A program made the position numbers and the translations under genes. Shown here in pieces: positions 40,530-53,917 of a stretch of 56,340 nucleotides of DNA. A model generated the notes under the pieces. That model saw only the letters and a program-made list of their open reading frames with translations. It was not told the DNA's origin and made no database searches. Within the stretch, counting starts at the first letter, position 1. Every line of letters starts with the position of its first letter. The stretch is from a bacterium (lineage in GTDB: Bacteria; Patescibacteriota; Patescibacteriia; 2-01-FULL-39-33): assembly GCA_029558735.1 (NCBI GenBank), contig JAKQDP010000063.1:1-56340 (forward strand). Reading direction: 5' to 3'.

Positions 40530-42116
40530 CTATAACAAACTCCGACCGGTCATATCGTCCGGCTTGGGCAAATCCATAATTTTCAGAATAGTCGGCGCCA
40601 CATCAGACAATAGTCCCGCCGGTTTGACTAAACTCAAATCAGAATTGGGACTGTCCGCCCCACCGCCGGTCTTACCTTCCCAGTGCCGGCCGACAATGAT
40701 TAACGGCACCGGATAGGTGCTGTGTTCTTTATCCATATTGCCTGATTGCAGATTGATTAGTTCCTCAGCATTGCCATGATCGGCCGTAATAACCACCACC
40801 CCGTTATGGGCCAGGGTCGCCTCAACAATCTTTTTTACGCCATTATCAACTGCTTCGCAGGCTTTAATCGTCGCTTTTAAGTCACCAGTATGACTCACCA
40901 TGTCGCCATTGGCAAAGTTCATAACAATAAAATCATAATGCTTAGCCATAATTTCCTTAATGGCACGCTGCGTGATCTCCTTAGCTGACATTTCCGGTTT
41001 ATCAGCATAAGAATCAACTCGCGGCGATGGTATTAATATTCGCTCTTCGCCGACAAACGCCTTTTCTTGGCCGCCATTAAAAAAGAAAGTGACATGAGCG
41101 TATTTTTCCGTCTCAGCAATATGCAATTGCTTCAGGCCGGCCTCGGCAATCACCTTAGCTAAGGGAGTGTCGATGGTTTCCGGCGGAAAGGCGACCTCGA
41201 CTGGCAAATCCTTCTCATATTCGGTCATAGTGACGAAATATAACCCGGACAGATATTCCCGGGGAAATTTGGCAAAACCGGGCAACACAAACGCTTTGGT
41301 CAATTCCCTGGCCCGATCCGCGCGAAAATTAAAAAATATTACCGCGTCTTGATGGCTGATGCGGCCCACCGGTTGGCCGTGTTCAGTAATCACTGTCGGA
41401 ATAAATTCCTCGTCGTAAATTTTTTTATCATAAGACGCTTTAACCGCTTCTACCGGATCACCAAAAAAATTTTCCGCCTCGCCGTTAACCATGGCATTAT
41501 AAGCCAAAACCAACCGCTCCCAATGATTATCACGATCCAGGGCATAAAATCGACCGGAAATAGAAGCGATTTTACCGATTTTTGAATCAACTAGCCGACT
41601 GTTGGCCTCGGCGACAAAATCAAGACCAGAGTTGTAAGGCATATCGCGACCATCCAAAATCGCATGAACCAAAACCTGATTTTTTAATTTTTCTTTCTGA
41701 CACAGTTCAACTAAAGCGTAAAAATGATCCATTGAAGAATGGACGCCGCCGGAAGAAACTAAGCCGACTAGATGAAGTTTGGAATTATTCCGACGAACAT
41801 GATTAATGGCGGCTAAAAATTTTTTATTGACAAAAAAATCACCGTCAGTGATTGCTTTGTTAATCCGCGGTAAATTTTGATAGACTAATTTACCCGAACC
41901 AAGGTTAAGGTGGCCGACTTCACTATTACCCATCTCCCCCCAAGACAACCCAACTGCTTCGCCGGCCGCCTGCAGAGACAGGGCCGGATAAGTTTTGATC
42001 AAATTATCAATAGTGGGCGTTTTGGCCAAAGCAATGGCATTGCTCCGTGATGGCGGGGCAATCCCCCAGCCATCCAAAACAATCAGTACCACCGGTTTAG
42101 GACGTTCTTGTTCCAT
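40530..42116 (-). CDS. gpmI: 2,3-bisphosphoglycerate-independent phosphoglycerate mutase (copy 1)
   Basis: LDGWG, GNSEVGHLNLGSG, LDGRD, FFNFRADRARELT, TADHGNAEEL. Confidence 0.95.
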   Translation of the reverse strand: MEQERPKPVVLIVLDGWGIAPPSRSNAIALAKTPTIDNLIKTYPALSLQAAGEAVGLSWGEMGNSEVGHLNLGSGKLVYQNLPRINKAITDGDFFVNKKFLAAINHVRRNNSKLHLVGLVSSGGVHSSMDHFYALVELCQKEKLKNQVLVHAILDGRDMPYNSGLDFVAEANSRLVDSKIGKIASISGRFYALDRDNHWERLVLAYNAMVNGEAENFFGDPVEAVKASYDKKIYDEEFIPTVITEHGQPVGRISHQDAVIFFNFRADRARELTKAFVLPGFAKFPREYLSGLYFVTMTEYEKDLPVEVAFPPETIDTPLAKVIAEAGLKQLHIAETEKYAHVTFFFNGGQEKAFVGEERILIPSPRVDSYADKPEMSAKEITQRAIKEIMAKHYDFIVMNFANGDMVSHTGDLKATIKACEAVDNGVKKIVEATLAHNGVVVITADHGNAEELINLQSGNMDKEHSTYPVPLIIVGRHWEGKTGGGADSPNSDLSLVKPAGLLSDVAPTILKIMDLPKPDDMTGRSLL

Positions 42117-42119
42117 AAG

Positions 42120-43673
42120 TTAAATAAGACTTTTTCTGGTCATTTCGGCTGGCGGCTGAAGATCAAAAAAATTTAGAATCGTCGGGGCAACATCACCTAA
42201 ATACCCCCGTTTGATTTTCTGTTTTTTTTCTTTTTTGCTGACGATAATCAACGGCACCGGATTGGTGGTGTGCTCAGTGATTATCTCTTTGGTTTCAAGA
42301 TTCAACATGGATTCTAGATTACCATGATCAGCGGTAATAAGCAAGACAACATTATTCTTCAAGCAAGCTTGGGCCACTTTTTTGACATACTTATCAACCG
42401 CTTCAGCAGTTCTAATACCAGCCCTGATATTACCAGTATGGCCAATCATATCCGGAGCAGCAAAATTGGCGCAAATAAAATCATGCATTTTTAAGCTGGC
42501 GATTAATTTCTGGGCCACCTTGGCCATCGACATTGCCGGCGTTTGATCATAGGCCGTCACTCTTGGCGAAGGGATTCTGACCCGTTTTTCCCCGGCCACT
42601 GGATCAGCATAGCCGCCGTTAAAAAAAAAGGTGACATGAGCGTATTTTTCACTTTCAGCAATATAAAGCTGACGAAAATCATGTAACATCATCGGCAGGG
42701 TGTTACGCAAATCCGCCGACGGATAAGCCGTTAAGATACTGTCCAAATCCGGACCAAAATCAGTCATCGCCACGAAAGCGATGTTTCGTAAAACACTCTT
42801 TCTTTTCGGGGCACCGGGATTTTTTCGCTCAAATTCTTGCTGAACAAACGGCTTGGCCAATTGACGCGCCCGATCACTGCGCAAATTGAAAAAAATTATC
42901 GCATCACCATTCTCAATTCTTCGAACCATTTTCTTGCGCCGCTGAATTACTATCGGTTCAATAAACTCATCGGTAATATCGGCATTGTAAGCGCGAGTAA
43001 TCCCGGCTTGGGGGCTGACGCTAATATGACCGCGACCGACAGTCATCGCCTCATACGCCCAAACAGTGCGGTCCCAGGCTTTTTTTCTATCCATAGCATA
43101 AAATCGACCGATAACAGTAGCAATAACTTCATGAGGCTTTAAAAAGCGTTCCAACGCCATCATTGATTTTAAGGAAGACCGGGGCGGCGAATCCCGACCA
43201 TCGGTAAATAAATGCAAATAAACATTCTTCACTTTCTGGGCCCGCAATAAAGTCAGTAAAGCCAATAAATGATCCGGGTCGCTATGGGGGCTCTGGCCAT
43301 TGGACAACAATCCCATTAAATGAACGGCGGATTTATTTTTTCGAGTATGACTAATCGCCGCGACAAAAGCCGGGTTTTTAAAAAATTGGCCGGTGTTAAT
43401 TTGTTTAGAAATCTTAACCACTTCCTGATCAGCGATGCGACCGGCGCCCAGATTGATATGACCGGCTTCGGAATTCCCTACTTGATTGGTTGGCAAGCCA
43501 GCGCACTTGCCGGAGGCGCAAAGTGTTGTCCAGGAATAATCGCGATAAAGCGAATCTAAAAATGGTGTTTTGGCAAGATGAATCGGATTGCCCGCGTCTG
43601 GCCGACCCAAACCCCAACCGTCCAAAATTAACAAAACTACTCTTCGGCGATTAATTGCATTCCTTTTAACCAT
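42120..43673 (-). CDS. gpmI: 2,3-bisphosphoglycerate-independent phosphoglycerate mutase (copy 2)
   Basis: LDGWG, GNSEAGHINLGAG, TDGRD, FFNLRSDRARQLA, TADHGNLESM. Confidence 0.94.
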   Translation of the reverse strand: MVKRNAINRRRVVLLILDGWGLGRPDAGNPIHLAKTPFLDSLYRDYSWTTLCASGKCAGLPTNQVGNSEAGHINLGAGRIADQEVVKISKQINTGQFFKNPAFVAAISHTRKNKSAVHLMGLLSNGQSPHSDPDHLLALLTLLRAQKVKNVYLHLFTDGRDSPPRSSLKSMMALERFLKPHEVIATVIGRFYAMDRKKAWDRTVWAYEAMTVGRGHISVSPQAGITRAYNADITDEFIEPIVIQRRKKMVRRIENGDAIIFFNLRSDRARQLAKPFVQQEFERKNPGAPKRKSVLRNIAFVAMTDFGPDLDSILTAYPSADLRNTLPMMLHDFRQLYIAESEKYAHVTFFFNGGYADPVAGEKRVRIPSPRVTAYDQTPAMSMAKVAQKLIASLKMHDFICANFAAPDMIGHTGNIRAGIRTAEAVDKYVKKVAQACLKNNVVLLITADHGNLESMLNLETKEIITEHTTNPVPLIIVSKKEKKQKIKRGYLGDVAPTILNFFDLQPPAEMTRKSLI

Positions 43674-43734
43674 TTAATTTATTATTTATAAAATTAAACG
43701 CTTGATAAAAATACCACTATTGCTTCTAATTGGG

Positions 43735-44991
43735 CTATTTCATTTCGTCCCAAATTTCCATCAACCGATTATATTTGGCGACGCGTTCGCTTCGGCAGAG
43801 CGAGCCAGTTTTAATATACTCAGCGCCGCAGGCGACCGCCAAATCAGAAATAAAATCATCCACTGTCTCGCCGCTCCGATGCGAGACGGCGATTTTGTAG
43901 CTATGCGTCTGGGCCAATTTAATCGCTTCCACGGTCTCGGTTAAACTGCCGATTTGATTTAATTTTATCAAAATGGCATTACTGACGCCCTGCTCTATTC
44001 CTTGTTGCAGCCTCTTGACGTTGGTCACAAACAGATCATCGCCCACCAAAGCGATTTTTTTACCAAGTTTATTAGTCAAGGTCTTCCAGCCGTCCCAATC
44101 ATCCTCAGCCAAGCCATCTTCCAATGATTCAATGGGATAACGAGTTAGCCAATCACTATACATTGCCACCATCTCCGCGGCCGATCTTTTTTTCTTATCT
44201 GCCACCATATTATAAATACCGTCTTTGTAAAATTCCGACGAAGCGGCATCAATGGCAATTTTGACATCTTTGCCGATTCTATAATTAGCGGCAGCAACCG
44301 CCTCCAAAATCACTTTAAGCGCCTGTTCATTACCCGGCAATTTCGGCGCATAGCCACCCTCGTCGCCAACCGTAGTCTGATAGCCTCGATCTTTTAAAAT
44401 CTTTTTCAAAGCATGAAAAATTTCCGCGCCGCAACGCACCGCCTCTTTGATATTTTTCTGTTGCGGTGTAATCATAAACTCCTGAATGTCAATCGACCAA
44501 CCGGCGTGGGCGCCGCCATTCATAATATTCATCATTGGCACCGGAAAAGACATCTTTTTTTGGGGCCAAAATTTTTTATGAAGATAAGCGTAAAGGGGCT
44601 TTTGGGCGTCAATCGCGCCAGCCCGGGCGACAGCTAATGATACGCCCAAAATTGCGTTAGCACCCAGTTTGGATTTGTTTTCCGTACCGTCAAGCTCGAG
44701 CATTAGCTTATCTATCTCTTTTTGTTGGCCGGCGGCCCAGCCCTTCAATTTAGGAGCAATTTTTTCGTTGACATTTTTAACCGCTTTCAATACTCCGTTG
44801 CCATCATATCTTTTTTTATCCCCGTCACGAAGCTCTAAAGCTTCATAACTGCCAGTCGAAGCGCCACTGGGCACTGCCGCCCAAGCCTTGACGCCGCTGG
44901 TTAATACCACTTCCGTTTCCACGGTCGGATTGCCACGCGAATCCAGAATTTCCCTTGCTTTGACTGACTTAATTTTTGACATACCGTTCAA
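43735..44991 (-). CDS. eno: Enolase
   Basis: [43 protein letters not shown]. Confidence 0.98.
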
Positions 44992-45041
44992 ATTGATTAT
45001 TTATTTCTAATAATTTTTAATTATAGCACAAACCGCGACCA

Positions 45042-45079
45042 AGTTAAAACAATCCGCCAAGAGGCGGATTGTTTTAACT
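45042..45079. terminator. Bidirectional terminator hairpin
   Basis: AGTTAAAACAATCCGCC-aaga-GGCGGATTGTTTTAACT, perfect 17-bp stem. Confidence 0.85.
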
Positions 45080-45092
45080 GTATTATTCTCAA

Positions 45093-45905
45093 TTATTTGG
45101 CAATTTCGTAAGTAATGTAAACATTAATACTGACCTCCTGACTGCCGGATTGGATATCAGCTTCGGGCACTGCCGCCGACAAAGCTTTTTGCTCCAAGCC
45201 ACCCATGCCGCCGATGCCATAAGCATAATTAACCGGATAAGGCTGATAAGAATCTTCAGAAAAACTGACAATCCGACCCAAATTAATGCCGACTTCATCA
45301 GCCAAAACTTTAGCCTTGTCTTTAGCTTGGGCGATCGCTTCTTTTCTCGCTTCAGCCCGATAGGTTTCCGGATCATCAATGGTAAAGTTGGGCCCGGAAA
45401 CGCTATTGGCGCCTTTCTCGCCAGCCATGGAAACAATTTTGCCGATATTATCAAAATTCCTCACCTTGATCTGGACCGACTGATTAACTTCGTAACCGGC
45501 CAAAGTCTGACGACCGTCGCTCCAATTATAGCGAGGATTAATTTGATAATAACTAGTCTTAATGTCCTCCTCGACAATCCGGTATTGATTCTTCAATTCG
45601 GCAATAATGGCATTCATCTTGTCAGTATTTTCTTTTTGAGCCGCTTCAACCGTCCCCTTTTCAGTAATGATGCCGACATTGATTATCGCCACGTCCGGCT
45701 TGGCGGTCACCTTGCCAGTGCCAGAGATACTAACTTGATACTGGTATTCCGGGCTCTTGCCAATGTAATTAAAATTTTCCCAAGAATTTCTCGTCAAACT
45801 AACGAGATAAGCGGACAACAAAATCATCACCACCACCACAAACGGCAACAAAATTAATTTGGCATGATATTTTGTCGATCGATTGCTTAAATTTTGTTCT
45901 GTCAT
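45093..45905 (-). CDS. SIMPL domain (DUF541) protein
   Basis: ISGTGKVTAKPDVAIINVGI...YEVNQSVQIKVRNFDNIGKIV. Confidence 0.9.
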   Translation of the reverse strand: MTEQNLSNRSTKYHAKLILLPFVVVVMILLSAYLVSLTRNSWENFNYIGKSPEYQYQVSISGTGKVTAKPDVAIINVGIITEKGTVEAAQKENTDKMNAIIAELKNQYRIVEEDIKTSYYQINPRYNWSDGRQTLAGYEVNQSVQIKVRNFDNIGKIVSMAGEKGANSVSGPNFTIDDPETYRAEARKEAIAQAKDKAKVLADEVGINLGRIVSFSEDSYQPYPVNYAYGIGGMGGLEQKALSAAVPEADIQSGSQEVSINVYITYEIAK

Positions 45906-45933
45906 AACTTTATATTAATTATTTTTTATTATT

Positions 45934-47109
45934 TTAATAAACTATTTTCTTCAATCCCGGCAATTTTCGACCTTCCAAGTATTCCAGCATGGCTCCACCG
46001 CCGGTCGAAATAAAGGTAAATTTTTTCTCCAAACCCAGCGCCCGAATGAGTTGAACTGTTTCACCGCCGCCGACAATTGTCTTGGCTTTAGACTGAGCTA
46101 AAATTTTAATCAGCTCCTTGGTGCCCCGAGCAAAAAATGGCGTCTCGATTAGCCCCAGCGGCCCGTTCCAAACAATGGTTTTCGCCTGATTGATAATGTG
46201 TCGATAAAGCTCAATCGTCTCCGGTCCAACATCAAGAATTAATTCATTCTTTCTGATATCGCCCAAGGCGTCGATTCGTCCCTTAATTGCCTTAAAGCTG
46301 CCGGCAAAGATGCCATCAACCGGCACCCGCAATTGATCGTCGGTCAATTTGATTTTTCTGATTTCGCCAATCATTTTTGGTTCGACCAATGACTTGCCAA
46401 CCGCCACTCCCATCGCCTTCAAAACCGTATTAGCTAAGGCCCCACCCAATAAAACATAATCAGCATGTTTCAAAAAACGGGAGATCACCTTGATTTTGGT
46501 GGAAATTTTGGCGCCACCGATAATTGCCACTAGCGGCTTGGGCTGCTGCTCAAAAATGCCACTTAAATTTTTCAATTCCCGTTCCAATAACAAGCCGGCA
46601 TAACTGGGCAAATAATGCTGAATGGTCGCCACTGACACATGCTCCCGATGGGACACGGCAAAACCGTCATTGACAAAAATATCACCCAATTTGGCCAGCT
46701 GCTTAGCAAAAACTTTATTGCCTCTTTCTTCTCGCCGGTCAAATCTGACATTTTCCAAAAGCAGAATCTCACCCGGTTTCATTTGCTCGATTTTCTGCTC
46801 CACTTCTTTGCCGATAATAATATTGCTCTTATAAATACTCTTGCATAACAACTGGCTTAAGCGGACCGCTACCGGATCCAGACGCAATTTTTCCACCTTT
46901 TTGCCCTCCGGCCGGCCCAAGTGAGCCATAATAACTATCTTGGCTTTTTTCTTGATTAAATATTTAATAGTTGGCAAACTTTGCGTCAGACGATAATCCT
47001 CATTTTTTCCTACTTGACCGTCTTTGTTAATAGGTACGTTAAAATCAACCCGAAGTAACACTCGTCGGCCTTTTAATTTTTTCGCTTGTCTAATGGATTT
47101 TATTTTCAT
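45934..47109 (-). CDS. pgk: Phosphoglycerate kinase
   Basis: RVLLRVDFNVPI, MAHLGRPEG, VNDGFAVSHREHVS, VGGGETV. Confidence 0.97.
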   Translation of the reverse strand: MKIKSIRQAKKLKGRRVLLRVDFNVPINKDGQVGKNEDYRLTQSLPTIKYLIKKKAKIVIMAHLGRPEGKKVEKLRLDPVAVRLSQLLCKSIYKSNIIIGKEVEQKIEQMKPGEILLLENVRFDRREERGNKVFAKQLAKLGDIFVNDGFAVSHREHVSVATIQHYLPSYAGLLLERELKNLSGIFEQQPKPLVAIIGGAKISTKIKVISRFLKHADYVLLGGALANTVLKAMGVAVGKSLVEPKMIGEIRKIKLTDDQLRVPVDGIFAGSFKAIKGRIDALGDIRKNELILDVGPETIELYRHIINQAKTIVWNGPLGLIETPFFARGTKELIKILAQSKAKTIVGGGETVQLIRALGLEKKFTFISTGGGAMLEYLEGRKLPGLKKIVY

Positions 47110-47250: not shown

Positions 47251-47505
47251 TTACTCCCCTTCTATGTCCTCCAGCACCCACTTGTCTCCGCTGACTTTAT
47301 TGACCGCTATTTCCAAACCATCAGCCGAACCGCCCTGGGCCAGCAGCTTGATATTGAAAATAAGATTTTCCGGCAACACTTCTTCGCCGTGCTCAACAAT
47401 CGAGCCCAAGCTGATAGTGGCTTTGGTTATTTTTTTTAGATTATTTTTTGCCGCATAATCCATAATTGTCTTATAGATTATGTCAGCCAGATGAAAATCG
47501 TGCAT
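47251..47505 (-). CDS. hypA: HypA-like hydrogenase nickel-insertion protein lacking the zinc-finger domain
   Basis: MHDFHLADIIYKTIMDYAAKNNLKKITKATISLGSI...LPENLIFNIKLLAQGGSADGLEIAVNKVSGDKWVLEDIEGE; N-terminal MHD; no Cys residues. Confidence 0.7.
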   Translation of the reverse strand: MHDFHLADIIYKTIMDYAAKNNLKKITKATISLGSIVEHGEEVLPENLIFNIKLLAQGGSADGLEIAVNKVSGDKWVLEDIEGE

Positions 47506-47517
47506 AAAATTTTATAA

Positions 47518-48150
47518 TTAATTTTCCAAATCAATAAATTTAGCCGTATTAAAAACTTCCGTTTCAGCTGATACCAACCTATAATTATCTATAATAATAA
47601 TTGCCCGTCCACGATCATCTGTTAATAAGTTTAGCTTCTCTTTGGCCAGACTAAGACCTGAATCATAACTATTCGTGAAACAAAGATATAAATCTCTTTG
47701 GTCAGTATGCAGGGTTGGAATCAATTTAACAGAGTTATCATCAAAATTCATAAAACATAATCTTTCGATGCCACCAAAACCGCTATTTGTCTCGTATTTA
47801 TAATCGCCAGTAATAACAGCTCGGCCAGAAAATTGTATCTTGACATTATAATCGCCCAGAGAAAAGCTATCAAGTGCGGGCTCAATAGAATTAATGGTCA
47901 TATTTCCCATCTTATCACCAACTTTTACCCCACTAAGATTAAATGAATTATTACCAGTTTCCGAATCTTCATCCATGGGTCCGTAAGAATTATCATCACT
48001 AATATCTGGATTATTCTCCGAGCTACCGCTGCCACTATTTATATTATTATCTTCAATCGTCACTAAATCTTCATCTGGATTTAAATAATTTTGTTGCTCT
48101 TTCTGAAATTTTAAGGAACAGCCGGAAAAAAGCAACAAGCAACAAACCAT
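47518..48150 (-). CDS. Putative lipoprotein, unknown function
   Basis: Lipobox LFSGC, Ser/Asn/Asp-rich linker, C-terminal globular domain. Confidence 0.6.
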   Translation of the reverse strand: MVCCLLLFSGCSLKFQKEQQNYLNPDEDLVTIEDNNINSGSGSSENNPDISDDNSYGPMDEDSETGNNSFNLSGVKVGDKMGNMTINSIEPALDSFSLGDYNVKIQFSGRAVITGDYKYETNSGFGGIERLCFMNFDDNSVKLIPTLHTDQRDLYLCFTNSYDSGLSLAKEKLNLLTDDRGRAIIIIDNYRLVSAETEVFNTAKFIDLEN

Positions 48151-48167
48151 TTTTAATTAATATTTAT

Positions 48168-49499
48168 TTAATGCGTGGCGCAGGCAATACACGGGTCATA
48201 AGCGCGAATCAGAGCGCGGATTTTTATCGCCCGCTTTTTCGGATTCAACTTCATCACATTAGGGATATAAGCCAAAACATCCTGTTCCAAATTCTTAAGA
48301 TAGGACACGGTCGGCGTGATAATATTGCAATTAGTCAGATAACCGTTTTTATCTATTTTGTAATGGTGGTACAAAGTGCCCCGCGGCGCTTCGATCGCGT
48401 CAACGCCAACCGTCTCACAACTAAGCGGATTGGCACCGGCAATCAAATTTAATGAAAGCCGAGCATCCTCTTTACTCTTACCCCCTCCTAACCTCCCCAT
48501 TCGCAAAGAGGAGGAATCAGATAATAAATCTCGCAAAATTTTTTTGGCTTCTTCCAGGCAGTGGATGATTTCAATCGCTTGGGCAGTAATGTTTTCAAAA
48601 GTATTATATTGCGGCAATTGCCAATTCATCCCCTTGAGCAATCCCTTGGCCAATGGGTTGAGCTGTTGCCAATTGTTGTTAATTCGCGCCAAAGCCCCGA
48701 CCATAAACGGCTCGCCGTCCAAAGTGGCTGATTTGGCCGCCCGATAGGGCTCTTCTATTTCTTTGATATTTTGAGTATATTTTTCCGCCTTAATAATTCT
48801 GGACTGGCTGGCTGACGGAAAAATTTTAATATCGCCGTCATATAGAGCATACTCTTTGGAATTGGTCAGACTGACAAAAGTGGTCGGCCGGCTGAACTTT
48901 GGATACTTAATGGAAATAACAAAGTTGGCCAAGCCCAAAGCATTTTTCAAAACAACTTCATACTGGTCGGCCAAATTTTTTAATTCATTTTTTTCCGGCA
49001 ACACTTTAAAACCACCAACCTCACAGGCAATCGGATGAACCGCTCGACCGCCAACCACTTCGATAATTTTGAGCGCCCACTGTCTGGTATTGATGGCGCA
49101 TTGTGTTTCTTTGGGATATTTTTTGACAAAATTCAAATCGTTTTCAATATTGAAAAAATCCGGCAATGACAAAAAGAAAAGATGCAGGGCATGGCTATGG
49201 ATGATTTGAGCCAGATTGATCAACTTACGCAGCTTGACTGTTTGTTGGCTGGGACGAATTTCAAAAGCATTTTCAATCGCTTTAATTGATGACAATTTAT
49301 GGACTACCGGACAAATACCGCAAATGCGGGAAGTGATAATCGGCGCTTCTTTAAAATGACGGCCGATCAAAATCCCCTCAATCAGCCGCGCCCCCTCGGT
49401 GGTAATCAATTTTGCCGATTGGACATCTCCCTTTAAGATTTCAGCCACAAAATCAGCGTGGCCTTCCATTTTGCCGATATGGTTTATTTGAATTTTCAT
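48168..49499 (-). CDS. hydA: [NiFe]-hydrogenase large (alpha) subunit, group 3b/sulfhydrogenase-like
   Basis: L1 RICGICPVVHKLSS and C-terminal DPCIACATH* Ni ligands; EAPRGTLYHHY. Confidence 0.93.
   Translation of the reverse strand: MKIQINHIGKMEGHADFVAEILKGDVQSAKLITTEGARLIEGILIGRHFKEAPIITSRICGICPVVHKLSSIKAIENAFEIRPSQQTVKLRKLINLAQIIHSHALHLFFLSLPDFFNIENDLNFVKKYPKETQCAINTRQWALKIIEVVGGRAVHPIACEVGGFKVLPEKNELKNLADQYEVVLKNALGLANFVISIKYPKFSRPTTFVSLTNSKEYALYDGDIKIFPSASQSRIIKAEKYTQNIKEIEEPYRAAKSATLDGEPFMVGALARINNNWQQLNPLAKGLLKGMNWQLPQYNTFENITAQAIEIIHCLEEAKKILRDLLSDSSSLRMGRLGGGKSKEDARLSLNLIAGANPLSCETVGVDAIEAPRGTLYHHYKIDKNGYLTNCNIITPTVSYLKNLEQDVLAYIPNVMKLNPKKRAIKIRALIRAYDPCIACATH
48478..48517. repeat. 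Palindromic repeat-like segment embedded in the hydrogenase large-subunit ORF
   Basis: TTACCCCCTCCTAACCTCCCCATTCGCAAAGAGGAGGAAT; in frame, encodes Ser/Gly-rich SSSLRMGRLGGGKS. Confidence 0.5.
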
Positions 49500-49567
49500 A
49501 GGGATAGCGATTAGCTGTTAGCGATTAGGGGTTAAGAAAATTTTTTAATAAAATTAAAACCAAAAAA

Positions 49568-49849
49568 TCAGTCCAATAACTCAATCAATTTTATGGCCGC
49601 TTCCTCATAATTGCCGGCCAAAGCCAACTCCCTGATATCATTATTGGCTTGACAATCAATTAATTCGCTTATTTTTTCCCCATACTTCAATACCCAATCA
49701 AGTTGAATCTGATAATCGGGCTTTTCCCCAAGCATCTGCCGCATCACTTCGCGCTGAAGCAAATCCCGATGCTTTAAATCAAGGCGATCAATATCCGGCT
49801 GTTCCGGGGTTTCTAAAGACATATTTTTGCCGATTATTTTTTCTGCCAA
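49568..49849 (-). CDS. Hypothetical 93-aa protein, overlapping the upstream AbrB-like gene
   Basis: MAEKIIGKNMSLETPEQPDIDRLDLKHRD...NNDIRELALAGNYEEAAIKLIELLD; start lies within the last codons of 49834-50001. Confidence 0.6.
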   Translation of the reverse strand: MAEKIIGKNMSLETPEQPDIDRLDLKHRDLLQREVMRQMLGEKPDYQIQLDWVLKYGEKISELIDCQANNDIRELALAGNYEEAAIKLIELLD

Positions 49850-50001
49850 TCCTTAATAGTCAATCTGGCTGACTTGCCGTCATAAATTATTTCCAATTTC
49901 TGCCTTTCTTTCCAACGAAATCTTTGCACCAACTCCTTGGGAATAGTGATGACATAGCTGTGGGTGCTCGCTTTTTGTAGTTTTCTGATATATTTTATCA
50001 T
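49834..50001 (-). CDS. AbrB/SpoVT-domain DNA-binding protein (not in the supplied ORF track)
   Basis: Translated by hand: MIKYIRKLQKASTHSYVITIPKELVQRFRWKERQKLEIIYDGKSARLTIKDWQKK* (55 aa). Confidence 0.8.
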   Translation of the reverse strand: MIKYIRKLQKASTHSYVITIPKELVQRFRWKERQKLEIIYDGKSARLTIKDWQKK

Positions 50002-50007
50002 ATATTT

Positions 50008-50048
50008 GACGTCAGTACGGACGTCAGTACGGACGTCCGTATGTCCGT
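50008..50048. repeat. 12-bp tandem repeat with embedded 14-bp palindrome, operator-like
   Basis: GACGTCAGTACG GACGTCAGTACG GACGTCCGTATG TCCGT; TACGGACGTCCGTA (50028-50041) is a perfect palindrome. Confidence 0.9.
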
Positions 50049-50059
50049 TATTATGTGAA

Positions 50060-50899
50060 TCATTTCAATTTTTTAATTTTATTATCAATTTTATTAACCT
50101 TAGACTTTCCGAACTTTCGATTTTTCTTCCCCTGCATTTCTTCCAGCCTTTTTAAAATGGTATCTCTGGCGCCAAACACTTCCATTATCCGATAAACTTG
50201 CTCCCGAGAAAAATGCTTTAATAAATAATTCATAAAATTTTCCACCTGCGCGCCGTCAAATAAGCCCCGGCAACCCCAACAGGCCTGCTTGGATTTTAGG
50301 CAGACGGCCTTGCAACCACCCAAGGTAATCGGCCCCAAGCAGATCTCCTCTTGCTGTAACAAGCATTGATATCCCCGACTCTGACATTCATAACAAACGG
50401 GATTTTGCGGAATGCGGAAACTGCCTTTTTTCAATAATTGATTAGCCAACTCAATAAATTCATCACCATCAATCGGACAACCGGGAATGACATAATCAAC
50501 TTTGACAAAATTGTCCACTTCTTTAATATCGGGGTTAGCTACTTTTAATTTTTTATATACTGCTTTAATCGCTCTGGTCTTGGACGCGTAATTTTTGAGT
50601 TCCCACACTCCGCCCAAGGCGGCGCAATTGCCCACCACCACCAACTTGTCCGAACGACAGCGCATCTCCTTGAGTAATTTGATATTTGCCTTGGTAACCG
50701 GATTACCCTCGACAAAACAAATATCATAATGCTCCGCCAGTATCGGCTCATCTTCCACTAGCCGGAATTCTTCCAACTGCACCTTGGCCAGCCAATCCAA
50801 AAATCTCCTACCCTGGTCAAGCATCACAAATTGACAACCCTCGCAGGAAGTCAATCCGATAATGGCTATTTTGGGTTTGATGTTTTTTCTTTTGGTCAT
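50060..50899 (-). CDS. hydD: [NiFe]-hydrogenase small (delta) subunit
   Basis: GLTSCEGCQFVML, VVVGNCAALGG, VIPGCPIDGDEF, CYECQSRGYQC...GGCKAVC...CWGCRG. Confidence 0.93.
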   Translation of the reverse strand: MTKRKNIKPKIAIIGLTSCEGCQFVMLDQGRRFLDWLAKVQLEEFRLVEDEPILAEHYDICFVEGNPVTKANIKLLKEMRCRSDKLVVVGNCAALGGVWELKNYASKTRAIKAVYKKLKVANPDIKEVDNFVKVDYVIPGCPIDGDEFIELANQLLKKGSFRIPQNPVCYECQSRGYQCLLQQEEICLGPITLGGCKAVCLKSKQACWGCRGLFDGAQVENFMNYLLKHFSREQVYRIMEVFGARDTILKRLEEMQGKKNRKFGKSKVNKIDNKIKKLK

Positions 50900-50945
50900 A
50901 AATAATCTACCTTTACACTATTTATTTTAACAGATATCAATAAAT

Positions 50946-50976
50946 AAAAAAACGGGAGAACGCGAAGGTTCTCCCG
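50946..50976 (-). terminator. Intrinsic terminator between DUF6390-like gene and hydrogenase small subunit
   Basis: CGGGAGAAC-N6-GTTCTCCCG with T7 on minus strand. Confidence 0.85.
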
Positions 50977-50981
50977 ACAAG

Positions 50982-51725
50982 TCACGGATTGACCGCGGCT
51001 AAAGTCATTTTAGTATACTTATCCAAGTTCTGAGCCTGTTCGATACTTAAACATTCAATCGCCCAATAGTGATGGAAAGCGACGACGCTGCCGGTATCAA
51101 CCGCCGAATCATTGGGATTGAGTATTCCCCAATCAACCATTTTTTTCTCCGGCTTGCCGATTCTGACGATCCGCTTATAATCAAACAACAGCGGCTGATA
51201 CATAACTGTCAATTGTTCGCCACGCTCAATGACAATACCGGAACAAACGCGACAGCTATCCAGGCTGTTCTGGATTGATTTTGTCACCAACGAATCCAGC
51301 TCTATACCCGGTCGAGTAAAAAAATATAATACTGACAAGCTGTGGTGGGCTCGAGCTTTTTCCAGACTAATAGCCCGAAACATTAAGGCAATATGCTCGG
51401 GATTCCAGCCTTCGCGCTTAACGTCCTGTTCAATCACCCAACCCACCGCCTCTGGCGTCACTTTATCCAATAAGCCATTCCCCAACCAATATGCCTCAAC
51501 CACCCGATCATCAAAAGGATCGCTGATGCTATTGGCTCGAGCAATCAGAGTGTAATAGGGGGTGGCTACTTCGAACTGCTTCAAAATTTCCCTAATGGTT
51601 AATTCGGCAAAATCCGCTCGTCCGGTAACATAATCGAAAAGAACTTTATGGGCGTCTTTGGGTCCGCAACGCTCCAACATATTCGGCTTAATGGAATAAG
51701 CCGCCGCTCGCTTAAGTCCGTTCAT
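50982..51725 (-). CDS. Hydrogenase-locus protein of unknown function (DUF6390-like)
   Basis: PNMLERCGPKD...DDRVVEAYWLGNGLLD...AFHHYWAIECLS; start set at MNGLKRAAAYS with SD GGGGAGGAGA inside hypC; family assigned from memory. Confidence 0.6.
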   Translation of the reverse strand: MNGLKRAAAYSIKPNMLERCGPKDAHKVLFDYVTGRADFAELTIREILKQFEVATPYYTLIARANSISDPFDDRVVEAYWLGNGLLDKVTPEAVGWVIEQDVKREGWNPEHIALMFRAISLEKARAHHSLSVLYFFTRPGIELDSLVTKSIQNSLDSCRVCSGIVIERGEQLTVMYQPLLFDYKRIVRIGKPEKKMVDWGILNPNDSAVDTGSVVAFHHYWAIECLSIEQAQNLDKYTKMTLAAVNP

Positions 51726-51927
51726 TTTTTCTCTCCTCCCCAATTAAATCCAATACCGCCTGCGCCTCATTAGCCCCTATTTTATTAACAATAATTCCAT
51801 TGACTGTCAAGACCCAATCACCTTGTTTTAGATCGGGAATCAAAACGGCATTAACCTTGCGACCGTCAAACAATTCGGCCCGGTCGCCTGAAATATTTTT
51901 AATTTGGAGAGGGATGGCGAGACACAT
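51712..51927 (-). CDS. hypC: HypC/HupF-like hydrogenase maturation chaperone
   Basis: MCLAIPLQIKNISGDRAELFDGRKVNAVLIPDLKQGDWVLTVNGIIVNKI; N-terminal MCLAIP. Confidence 0.88.
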   Translation of the reverse strand: MCLAIPLQIKNISGDRAELFDGRKVNAVLIPDLKQGDWVLTVNGIIVNKIGANEAQAVLDLIGEERKNERT

Positions 51928-52025
51928 GGAGATAATTTATAACAAATTTTTAATTTTCAATTTTAAATTTAAAAATAATTTCCAATTTTAAATATATGCT
52001 TTAAGGACTTTCTAAATTTTTGACT

Positions 52026-52853
52026 TTATAGACTGTAGTAATCCTTAATATCCAGCCAGCGAAATACCGGACCATCCTTGCAAACATAAAATGGGCCGAT
52101 AGCGCAGTGCTGACAGACACCAATGCCGCAATGCATCCGTTTTTCCAAAGAGAGGATAATATTTTCGTCGCTTAATTTCTTATGCTTCAGTTCTTTGATG
52201 ACAAATCTATACATCACTGGCGGACCGACCAAAACCGCTACCGTCTGGGCGCTGATTTTTATCCGGCCAAGCAAATCCGTCACCAAGCCTCTGTCTCCCT
52301 TCCAATTAGTTGACGGTTTTTCCAAAATGACTTTTAATTCCGCCCGGCGATTCCAAGCGGCATGATTCTTTTTAAACAGCATCGTCTCTTCACTGGCACA
52401 GCCGTAAAGTATCTGTAAAGTTTTGCTTTCCAATCGTCCGGCCAGATAATCAATAATAAGCGGACGCAACGGCACAAAGCCGCAACCGCCGCCAACAAGT
52501 AAAAGCGGCTTGCCCTTAAATAAGTCAACATCAAATCCGTTACCGAATGGGCCGCGGATGTCGACGCAATCACCAGCAGATAGACTATTTAATTTATTAG
52601 TCAAAACACCAATATCCCTAATAGCCAGCTCAAAAAAAGTTTCACTATCGTTGGGCGACGAACAGATACTGATTGGGCACTCGCCCCAGCCAGGCAATCC
52701 TATTTGCACAAATTGTCCGGGCAAGAAATGAAAATTTTTCTTGATTTCCGAGTCAATAAATTCCAGCCGCAACAACTTGGTGTCAACCGACTCCTGACTA
52801 GCTGATATAATCCTGACTTTATTGGTTTGATAGATGTTGAGCATAAAAAACAC
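52026..52853 (-). CDS. hydG: Sulfhydrogenase gamma subunit / NAD(P)H diaphorase (FAD, NAD(P), [2Fe-2S])
   Basis: LLLVGGGCGFVPLRPLI; LEKRMHCGIGVCQHCAIGPFYVCKDGPVF. Confidence 0.93.
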   Translation of the reverse strand: MFFMLNIYQTNKVRIISASQESVDTKLLRLEFIDSEIKKNFHFLPGQFVQIGLPGWGECPISICSSPNDSETFFELAIRDIGVLTNKLNSLSAGDCVDIRGPFGNGFDVDLFKGKPLLLVGGGCGFVPLRPLIIDYLAGRLESKTLQILYGCASEETMLFKKNHAAWNRRAELKVILEKPSTNWKGDRGLVTDLLGRIKISAQTVAVLVGPPVMYRFVIKELKHKKLSDENIILSLEKRMHCGIGVCQHCAIGPFYVCKDGPVFRWLDIKDYYSL

Positions 52854-52933
52854 AAAATAAAAAATTGAAAAAATGAAAATGAAAAATTAAGATCTAAATT
52901 TCATACTATTGTTTTGCATTTTGAATCTGCACT

Positions 52934-53917
52934 TTAAACTTTCTTCAACACCTCCTCTATCTTTATTCCGACCGGACAAACTTTACTGCAGCGGCCACAG
53001 CCGACACAGCCGGGCATCATATATTCAAAGGGAATGCGCACGAATTTATGATAATACCAAAAAAATATTTTTTTACTGACAGTATCCAGTTCCTTGCCAC
53101 CGCCGGCAACCAAAGAAAAATCATTATAAAAACAACTACCCCATTTGCGCACCCGTTCGGGATTATCCGGGTCCACACTATCTTCCAAATCAAAACAAAA
53201 ACAAGTCGGACAATTGATGGAGCATTTACCGCAGGCAATACAAATTTTATTCAATTCATGCCAAATCCTTTTACCTTGTGAAGATTCCATTTTTTTCTTC
53301 AGAAGCAACATTTTTTTATCCGGACCTTTTTCAGAAATCGGACCGGCAAATTCAATGTGTTCGTAATCTTTGATGCCACCTTCTTCCAAAATATGCTGAC
53401 CCTTTTCTGAACCGGAATAAATTTTCATCCGACCGACGGCAAATTGGGCGATAAAAATATCAAAAATCAAATGTTCCAAAATATCTTCTTCAAAATTATG
53501 GCTGAATATTTTATATTTTTTGTAATCATTGGGCCAGCTGGAGCTGTAACCAATAATCAGGGTATTGCATCGCCTTTCTTGATAATAGACATCGCGACTA
53601 AAAACTAACTCCAATAAAGTCAACGCCTTGAGATCAACAACATTGACGCCAATAGCGGCTATTTTCGGCTGACTGGTTTTCGATTTGACTAATCGGCCGT
53701 CGCTAATGTCAAACATTTTTTCCCGTGCCGGTAAAAATAATGCCTTCCAGGTATTTGTGGGCATACGACCCGACCAATCAACATCGCCGATATCCCGGAC
53801 TTCTTTAATATTAATAACCGCACCGTCTTGTTGCGGCGCAAACAAAAAAAATTCTTCAGACAACTTATTCAAAAAAACCTGTATTTCATTGTTCATAATA
53901 AATACATTATAACACAA
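52934..53917 (-). CDS. hydB: Sulfhydrogenase beta subunit (two 4Fe-4S clusters)
   Basis: CIACGKCSINCPTCFCFDLED and CVGCGRCSKVCPVGIKIEEV. Confidence 0.9.
   Translation of the reverse strand: MCYNVFIMNNEIQVFLNKLSEEFFLFAPQQDGAVINIKEVRDIGDVDWSGRMPTNTWKALFLPAREKMFDISDGRLVKSKTSQPKIAAIGVNVVDLKALTLLELVFSRDVYYQERRCNTLIIGYSSSWPNDYKKYKIFSHNFEEDILEHLIFDIFIAQFAVGRMKIYSGSEKGQHILEEGGIKDYEHIEFAGPISEKGPDKKMLLLKKKMESSQGKRIWHELNKICIACGKCSINCPTCFCFDLEDSVDPDNPERVRKWGSCFYNDFSLVAGGGKELDTVSKKIFFWYYHKFVRIPFEYMMPGCVGCGRCSKVCPVGIKIEEVLKKV

Follow-up and report, generated by a model that had tools for sequence, protein, structure and literature searches.

We analysed a 56,340-nucleotide stretch of DNA (contig JAKQDP010000063.1, hereafter the window), contig 44 of a 991-kb genome from a bacterium of the Candidate Phyla Radiation (CPR), in which positions 47251 to 53917 hold a [NiFe]-hydrogenase locus with a hypC gene and a gene of the DUF6390 family. 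Our subject is how this enzyme and its relatives may obtain their Fe(CN)2CO unit in genomes that lack HypD, HypE and HypF. All genes of the locus lie on the minus strand, in the order hydB, hydG, hypC, DUF6390, hydD, AbrB-like, orf93, hydA, lipoprotein and hypA-like, just as an earlier note on this DNA had laid them out. The terminator that the note placed between DUF6390 and hydD is real: an intrinsic terminator with a 9-bp stem and a 7-T tail (50953–50976, minus strand) separates hydB, hydG, hypC and DUF6390 from hydD onward.

The locus specifies a [NiFe]-hydrogenase of group 3b type, built from four subunits and belonging to the CPR clade already known as hyd1. The large subunit gene, hydA (48168–49499; PF00374, 132 bits), retains the four metal-binding Cys, and hydD (50060–50899) encodes the small subunit with Cys motifs for three Fe-S clusters (PF01058, 74.9 bits; ShyD/HydD, 135/133 bits). 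The beta subunit, an Fe-S electron transfer protein, is encoded by hydB (52934–53896; Fer4_22, 97.5 bits; top NCBIfam models ShyB/HydB, under the equivalog cut-off). The gamma subunit gene, hydG (52026–52853), combines FAD/NAD(P)-binding domains with a C-terminal 2Fe-2S domain (FAD_binding_6, NAD_binding_1, DHODB_Fe-S_bind; ShyC, 205 bits); this flavin/NAD subunit is distinct from the HydG maturase of relatives discussed below. Four genes for alpha, beta, gamma and delta subunits, with Fe-S and FAD/NAD(P) domains, are expected of group 3b, and the window shares the HydA, HydB, HydG and HydD subunits, the [NiFe] motifs and these domains with Pyrococcus furiosus soluble hydrogenase I, or sulfhydrogenase (group 3b; PDB 9e15, 9e1j), and its relative 5yxy. 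HydA can be aligned with the P. furiosus enzyme up to the terminal DPCxxCxxH, and its last residues are DPCIACATH, with no C-terminal peptide beyond the L2 His. The window differs from P. furiosus in this missing peptide, in lacking HypB, HypD, HypE and HypF, in gene order and in scoring far under the NCBIfam equivalog cut-offs: HydA reaches 228/221 bits against the sulfhydrogenase alpha models, whose cut-offs are 700–880, and is thus a distant relative rather than the characterised sulfhydrogenase itself. Among 85 HydA sequences, the metal-ligand motif RxCGxC is present in every one and DxCxxCxxH in 81, the other four being cut or split at contig ends (two) or carrying Asn for His (two); the APRG motif is conserved as well. 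That group 3b hydrogenases were already reported from CPR, as the note stated, is correct: Jaffe et al. (2020) described the hyd1 and hyd2 types, with a HypC-like family near hydB, hydG, hydD and hydA (PMC7304191), and the window belongs to the same clade type.

The enzyme is accompanied by few of the expected maturation genes. HypB, HypD, HypE and HypF, noted earlier as missing from the window, are absent from the whole genome too. Searches of the complete window genome gave no match for HypB, HypD or HypE, and for HypF only weak partial matches, to a frame of 90 aa, about the size of an acylphosphatase, and to a stretch resembling TsaD/Kae1. The note had named a complete hyp operon elsewhere among the findings that would refute its hypothesis, and none turned up. 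The absence extends to relatives. In the order (10 genomes) HydA occurs in seven genomes and HypD in none; in the class (380 genomes) HydA occurs in 90 and HypD in eight, with both in seven, leaving 83 of the 90 HydA genomes without HypD. A HypF-like protein was found in six of the eight HypD genomes and in none of 32 other genomes searched. HypE was seen solely beside HypD, the genome-wide searches for HypE and HypB covering the window genome. We also observed that the HypF of HypD-bearing CPR genomes (L209–L214) consists of the Kae1-like half only (~370–470 aa), its acylphosphatase, zinc and YrdC parts being lost.

The window genome is in 75 contigs, and one might suppose that the assembly missed existing hyp genes or that these have diverged beyond detection. 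We consider this very improbable, and it is already largely refuted: the genome is 99.2% complete, HypD scores strongly where it is present (410–427 bits), and several of the 83 genomes with HydA and no HypD (G137, G123, G033, G101, G042 and G127) are assembled in one to three contigs, so that assembly gaps cannot account for the absence. HypC itself adds a further point. In Thermococcus kodakarensis, Cys2 of HypC holds Fe(CN)2CO while His45 faces the HypD pocket (PMC11565642). The window hypC (51712–51927; 71 aa; PF01455, 50.4 bits, cut-off 28.5) encodes the N-terminal MC, and Cys2 was retained in all HypC sequences that could be read; in the alignment the conserved His is replaced. This His is present in all six HypC from HypD genomes, in one of 35 from genomes with neither HypD nor HydE, and in none of 13 HypC-HydE fusions. 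The altered HypC flagged by the note therefore withstood scrutiny: the His is lost where HypD is missing, which gives independent support for a real loss of HypD. Together with the completeness of the genome and the class-wide absence, it rules out an assembly gap as the reason for the missing genes. Compared with the HypCDEF pathway of Escherichia coli and Thermococcus, the window shares HypC with its Cys2 and the N-terminal domain of HypA; in contrast to that pathway, it is without HypB, HypD, HypE and HypF, has no C-terminal peptide to cut and has lost the HypC His.

The gene that overlaps hypC encodes a 247-aa protein (50982–51725) which the note had called DUF6390-like and which is a true member of the family (PF19927, 129 bits, cut-off 25). 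It comprises an N-terminal domain and a C-terminal domain that resembles HypC (hhalign probability 96.4%, E = 1e-9), and when the DUF6390 profile was compared with the PDB, the top three chains were all HypC (E 0.008, 0.01 and 0.13). A Cys of DUF6390 aligns on HypC Cys2 and a His on HypC His45; these residues, C158 and H218 in window numbering, are invariant in 53 DUF6390 sequences.

We further investigated how DUF6390 is distributed across the class. It occurs in 58 genomes, 57 of which carry HydA (Fisher p ~7e-43, relatedness ignored), and no genome holds two of the three proteins HypD, HydE and DUF6390 (p ~2e-11, not corrected for relatedness). Most HydA genomes carry one of three alternative gene sets: (a) HypC, HypD, HypE and a short HypF, in seven genomes; (b) a fusion of HypC and HydE, in most cases together with the HydG maturase, in 12; and (c) HypC with DUF6390, usually beside an EamA transporter, in 57, the window genome included. 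On a tree of the 85 HydA sequences, HydA from HypD, HydE and DUF6390 genomes are intermixed on short branches, and at least 12 switches between the three states are required, a count that, unlike the p-values, takes relatedness into account. Exchange is visible at short range: in the window's own family, DUF6390 is found in G000 and G003 and HypC-HydE in five sister genomes, and one close pair carries HydE (G090) and DUF6390 (G061). Such repeated exchange on the HydA tree is the pattern expected of functional equivalents.

HydE was found in 13 genomes, always as a HypC fusion. Against the HydE equivalog cut-off of 254.6 bits, fused parts score 276–285 bits; 12 genomes exceed the cut-off and the thirteenth falls just under it. 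The HydE part matches Thermotoga maritima HydE at about 1e-73 to 1e-78. One HydE genome, G001, has no HydA call; there hydB, hydG and hydD adjoin the fusion and the contig ends. The HydG maturase accompanies HypC-HydE in nine genomes; in eight of them the two genes are neighbours or almost so, and in the ninth HydG lies on a different contig. Both Fe-S motifs and the GPHT motif are intact in all nine, and the two HydG proteins that were scored reached 599 and 595 bits (cut-off 312). In [FeFe]-hydrogenase maturation, tyrosine is the starting material for an Fe(CO)2(CN) unit that is made by HydG and then processed by HydE. The proteins of these sister genera match the [FeFe] maturases at equivalog level and keep their cluster motifs, but their HydE is fused to HypC, in [NiFe] operons, and no [FeFe]-hydrogenase was found in any of the 13 HydE genomes, which excludes HydE as the leftover of an [FeFe]-hydrogenase system. 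From the fusion, the linkage and the absence of an [FeFe]-hydrogenase, we infer that HydG and HydE would deliver their product to the [NiFe] site.

Other leads around set (b) were set aside. Neither HydE nor HydG is present in the window genome, which rules out this route there. A methyltransferase gene beside hydA in some HydG-less genomes is not a convincing HydG substitute, being a weak, general methyltransferase with related genes elsewhere. A HydE-like radical S-adenosylmethionine protein on Bradyrhizobium plasmids has no hydrogenase context, and a plasmid search for HypC-HydE fusions gave no match covering 80% of the query.

The absence of HypD from 83 of 90 HydA genomes could also mean that HydA no longer carries Fe(CN)2CO, holding another metal set or serving as an electron-transfer or structural protein, and has no need of HypDEF. 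We regard this as unlikely: HydA has kept its four metal-binding Cys along with the APRG motif, HydA of all three sets intermingle on the tree with short branches, HypC Cys2 is invariant, and some HydA are linked to HydG and HydE, known makers of Fe-CO/CN units.

Altogether, the window enzyme appears to be a working cytosolic, NAD(P)-linked [NiFe]-hydrogenase, and it is reasonably probable, judging from gene content and conserved residues, that its Fe(CN)2CO unit is assembled on a HypC and DUF6390 scaffold rather than by HypCDEF. HypC and DUF6390 would form the scaffold normally formed by HypC and HypD: two HypC-like domains, each contributing one Cys, would bind the Fe unit between them, with both Cys as ligands, before passing it to HydA. 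The short HypA would supply Ni without HypB. HydA is made without a C-terminal peptide, so no endopeptidase would be needed. In relatives with set (a), the same job would be done by classical HypD and HypE with the short HypF; in those with set (b), tyrosine would be the source from which HydG makes CO and CN-, and the Fe unit would go from HydE to the fused HypC for delivery. For the CPR as a whole, the evidence leans slightly towards an [NiFe]-hydrogenase uncoupled from HypDEF, with at least three interchangeable routes to the Fe-CO/CN unit: HypD and HypE with short HypF, the HydG/HypC-HydE hybrid, and DUF6390 with EamA, the window representing the third. The note had proposed a reduced hydrogenase maturation system. 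This stands insofar as hypBDEF are missing genome-wide and HypD is missing across most of the class, and is incomplete insofar as hypDEF are also replaced, by DUF6390 (usually with EamA) or, in sister genera, by HypC-HydE and HydG.

The EamA transporter gene bears on where the ligands come from. Of the 58 DUF6390 loci, 47 have it at a distance of no more than 3 kb, it accompanies the c41 family described below in five of five cases, and none was found in HydE loci; in three loci (L108, L110 and L226) we observed EamA and DUF6390 fused into one protein of ~560 aa. That EamA is linked to DUF6390 in most relatives hints at a precursor being taken up. Taken further, neighbouring or host cells might be the source of the Fe(CN)2CO unit or of a precursor of its ligands, with EamA importing it and DUF6390 and HypC receiving it, making the hydrogenase only partly self-made. 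CPR bacteria take up many building blocks, and no ligand-making enzyme is recognisable in the DUF6390 set. We nevertheless hold this to be doubtful, though a serious contender, for the window has no linked EamA, EamA proteins are often exporters, and a free, transportable Fe(CN)2CO compound is not known. Alternatively, the N-terminal half of DUF6390 might itself have enzymatic activity and produce the CO and CN ligands. Besides the HypC-like C-terminus, Cys20, His128 and the EAYWxGN and HHxFHV motifs are invariant, and DUF6390 stands in for whole ligand-making sets in CPR; but this half has no detectable similarity to any enzyme, and DUF6390 coexists with HypE and HypF in Sulfobacillus and Mycobacterium, which makes the idea improbable.

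Several observations weigh against the reading that we favour, assembly on a HypC and DUF6390 scaffold. No set of the three is present in 14 HydA genomes, of which five pair EamA with family c41 and another, G029, pairs it with a small DUF6390-like protein. Four HypC-HydE genomes (L042, L044, L045 and L046) lack any HydG, and the chemistry of HydG and HydE leads to Fe(CO)2(CN), not Fe(CN)2CO. No EamA gene is linked in the window or was found in the 397 kb of its genome that could be read; the overlapping hypC and DUF6390 genes without EamA between them, as in the window, are a minority arrangement. Finally, DUF6390 lies within complete hypF-C-D-E operons in Sulfobacillus acidophilus and Mycobacterium intracellulare. 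It is therefore not by nature a HypD substitute, and it may be only an accessory HypC-like chaperone.

Outside CPR, DUF6390 is widespread. In all, 386 stretches were confirmed across the genome collection, and among the 80 of these that were listed are members of Chloroflexota, Thermomicrobiales, Acidimicrobiia and Rubrobacter, as well as one Nanoarchaeota metagenome-assembled genome. The Sulfobacillus and Mycobacterium proteins belong to the same Pfam family and stand beside HypC and an [NiFe]-hydrogenase, as in CPR, but they coexist with complete HypDEF, whereas in the sampled CPR genomes DUF6390 never occurs with HypD. DUF6390 is thus a gene of hyp operons, whose use without HypDEF may be peculiar to CPR. 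In several Chloroflexota loci, HypC-DUF6390 is accompanied by EamA, with no HypD gene closer than 8 kb. The c41 family is a separate observation: in five HydA genomes (L105, L074, L062, L191 and L192), the gene next to EamA codes not for DUF6390 but for this protein of ~260 aa, which has LNPDC and HHFGVV motifs. It has no database match, and its hhalign probabilities are low (22.8% to HypC, 3.7% to DUF6390).

Two features that the note had considered unusual here proved to be general. The hypA-like gene (47251–47505) encodes 84 aa with only the N-terminal, Ni-binding domain; it starts with MHD, lacks the zinc domain and scores 24.8 bits over residues 1–73 of PF01155, under the Pfam cut-off of 28.9. 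HypA without a zinc domain occurs in about 40 hyd1 loci, and all 47 hyd1-type HydA with a readable end terminate at the L2 His, whether or not HypD is present. Zinc-less HypA and peptide-less HydA are thus features of the clade, HypD-bearing loci included, and not specific to the window. In hyd2, the second CPR HydA type, 7–28 residues past the L2 His are kept and a HycI-like peptidase gene is usually nearby; in hyd2 loci L089–L117 we found a diverged HycI-like peptidase of ~125–135 aa, matching the retained peptide, and hyd1 loci have neither. The search for an endopeptidase gene covered 397 kb of the window genome.

The regulator-like pair that the note saw between the catalytic subunits is present, but it is lineage-specific. 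It consists of a 55-aa AbrB/MazE-type DNA-binding protein (49834–50001; PF04014, 27.2 bits, cut-off 24.7) and orf93 (49568–49849, start likely at 49822). Among the related loci examined, the AbrB-like gene and the putative lipoprotein gene (47518–48150, without Pfam or NCBIfam match) have no homologue, and orf93 has one, in G003, a genome of the same family; Candidatus Buchananbacteria E14_maxbin.167 (L228) is a close relative of the window genome. The insertion is not conserved, which rules it out as a functional part of the enzyme. Three 12-bp direct repeats, GACGTCAGTACG (50008–50043), immediately precede the AbrB-like gene; they are operator-like and are probably this gene's own operator. 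Within hydA, a palindromic repeat of the CCTCCCCCTTACGAAGGGGGAGGTTAGGAGGGGG type (48475–48513, minus strand) forms an in-frame insertion of ~10 extra residues relative to relatives; further copies lie in the stretches of the window genome that were read, at L303:16627 and L309:2222. Directly downstream of hypA (40530–47109) are pgk, eno, two phosphoglycerate mutase genes and, in some loci, a SIMPL/DUF541-like gene. The same lower-glycolysis neighbours occur in many hyd1 loci (L042, L062, L080 and L208 among others), and this linkage of glycolysis and hydrogenase genes is conserved.

The report of the CPR hydrogenases (PMC7304191) contains neither the word maturation nor hypD, and does not describe the missing HypDEF or the DUF6390/EamA and HypC-HydE/HydG sets. 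In the open-access papers searched, we found nothing that joins Candidate Phyla Radiation, hydrogenase and hypD and no mention of DUF6390; open-access titles and abstracts held no report of HydE or HydG serving an [NiFe]-hydrogenase. A 2025 review counts all six Hyp proteins as necessary (PMC12134894). HypCDEF is taken as required for every [NiFe]-hydrogenase, and about nine in ten hydrogenase-bearing genomes of this class lack HypD. If our reading is true, cells have ways other than HypCDEF to make or acquire the Fe(CN)2CO unit, [NiFe] and [FeFe] maturation would be joined, and DUF6390 would be given a function. It would also offer a smaller gene set for hydrogenase production in other hosts, and would bear on what CPR cells take from their neighbours.

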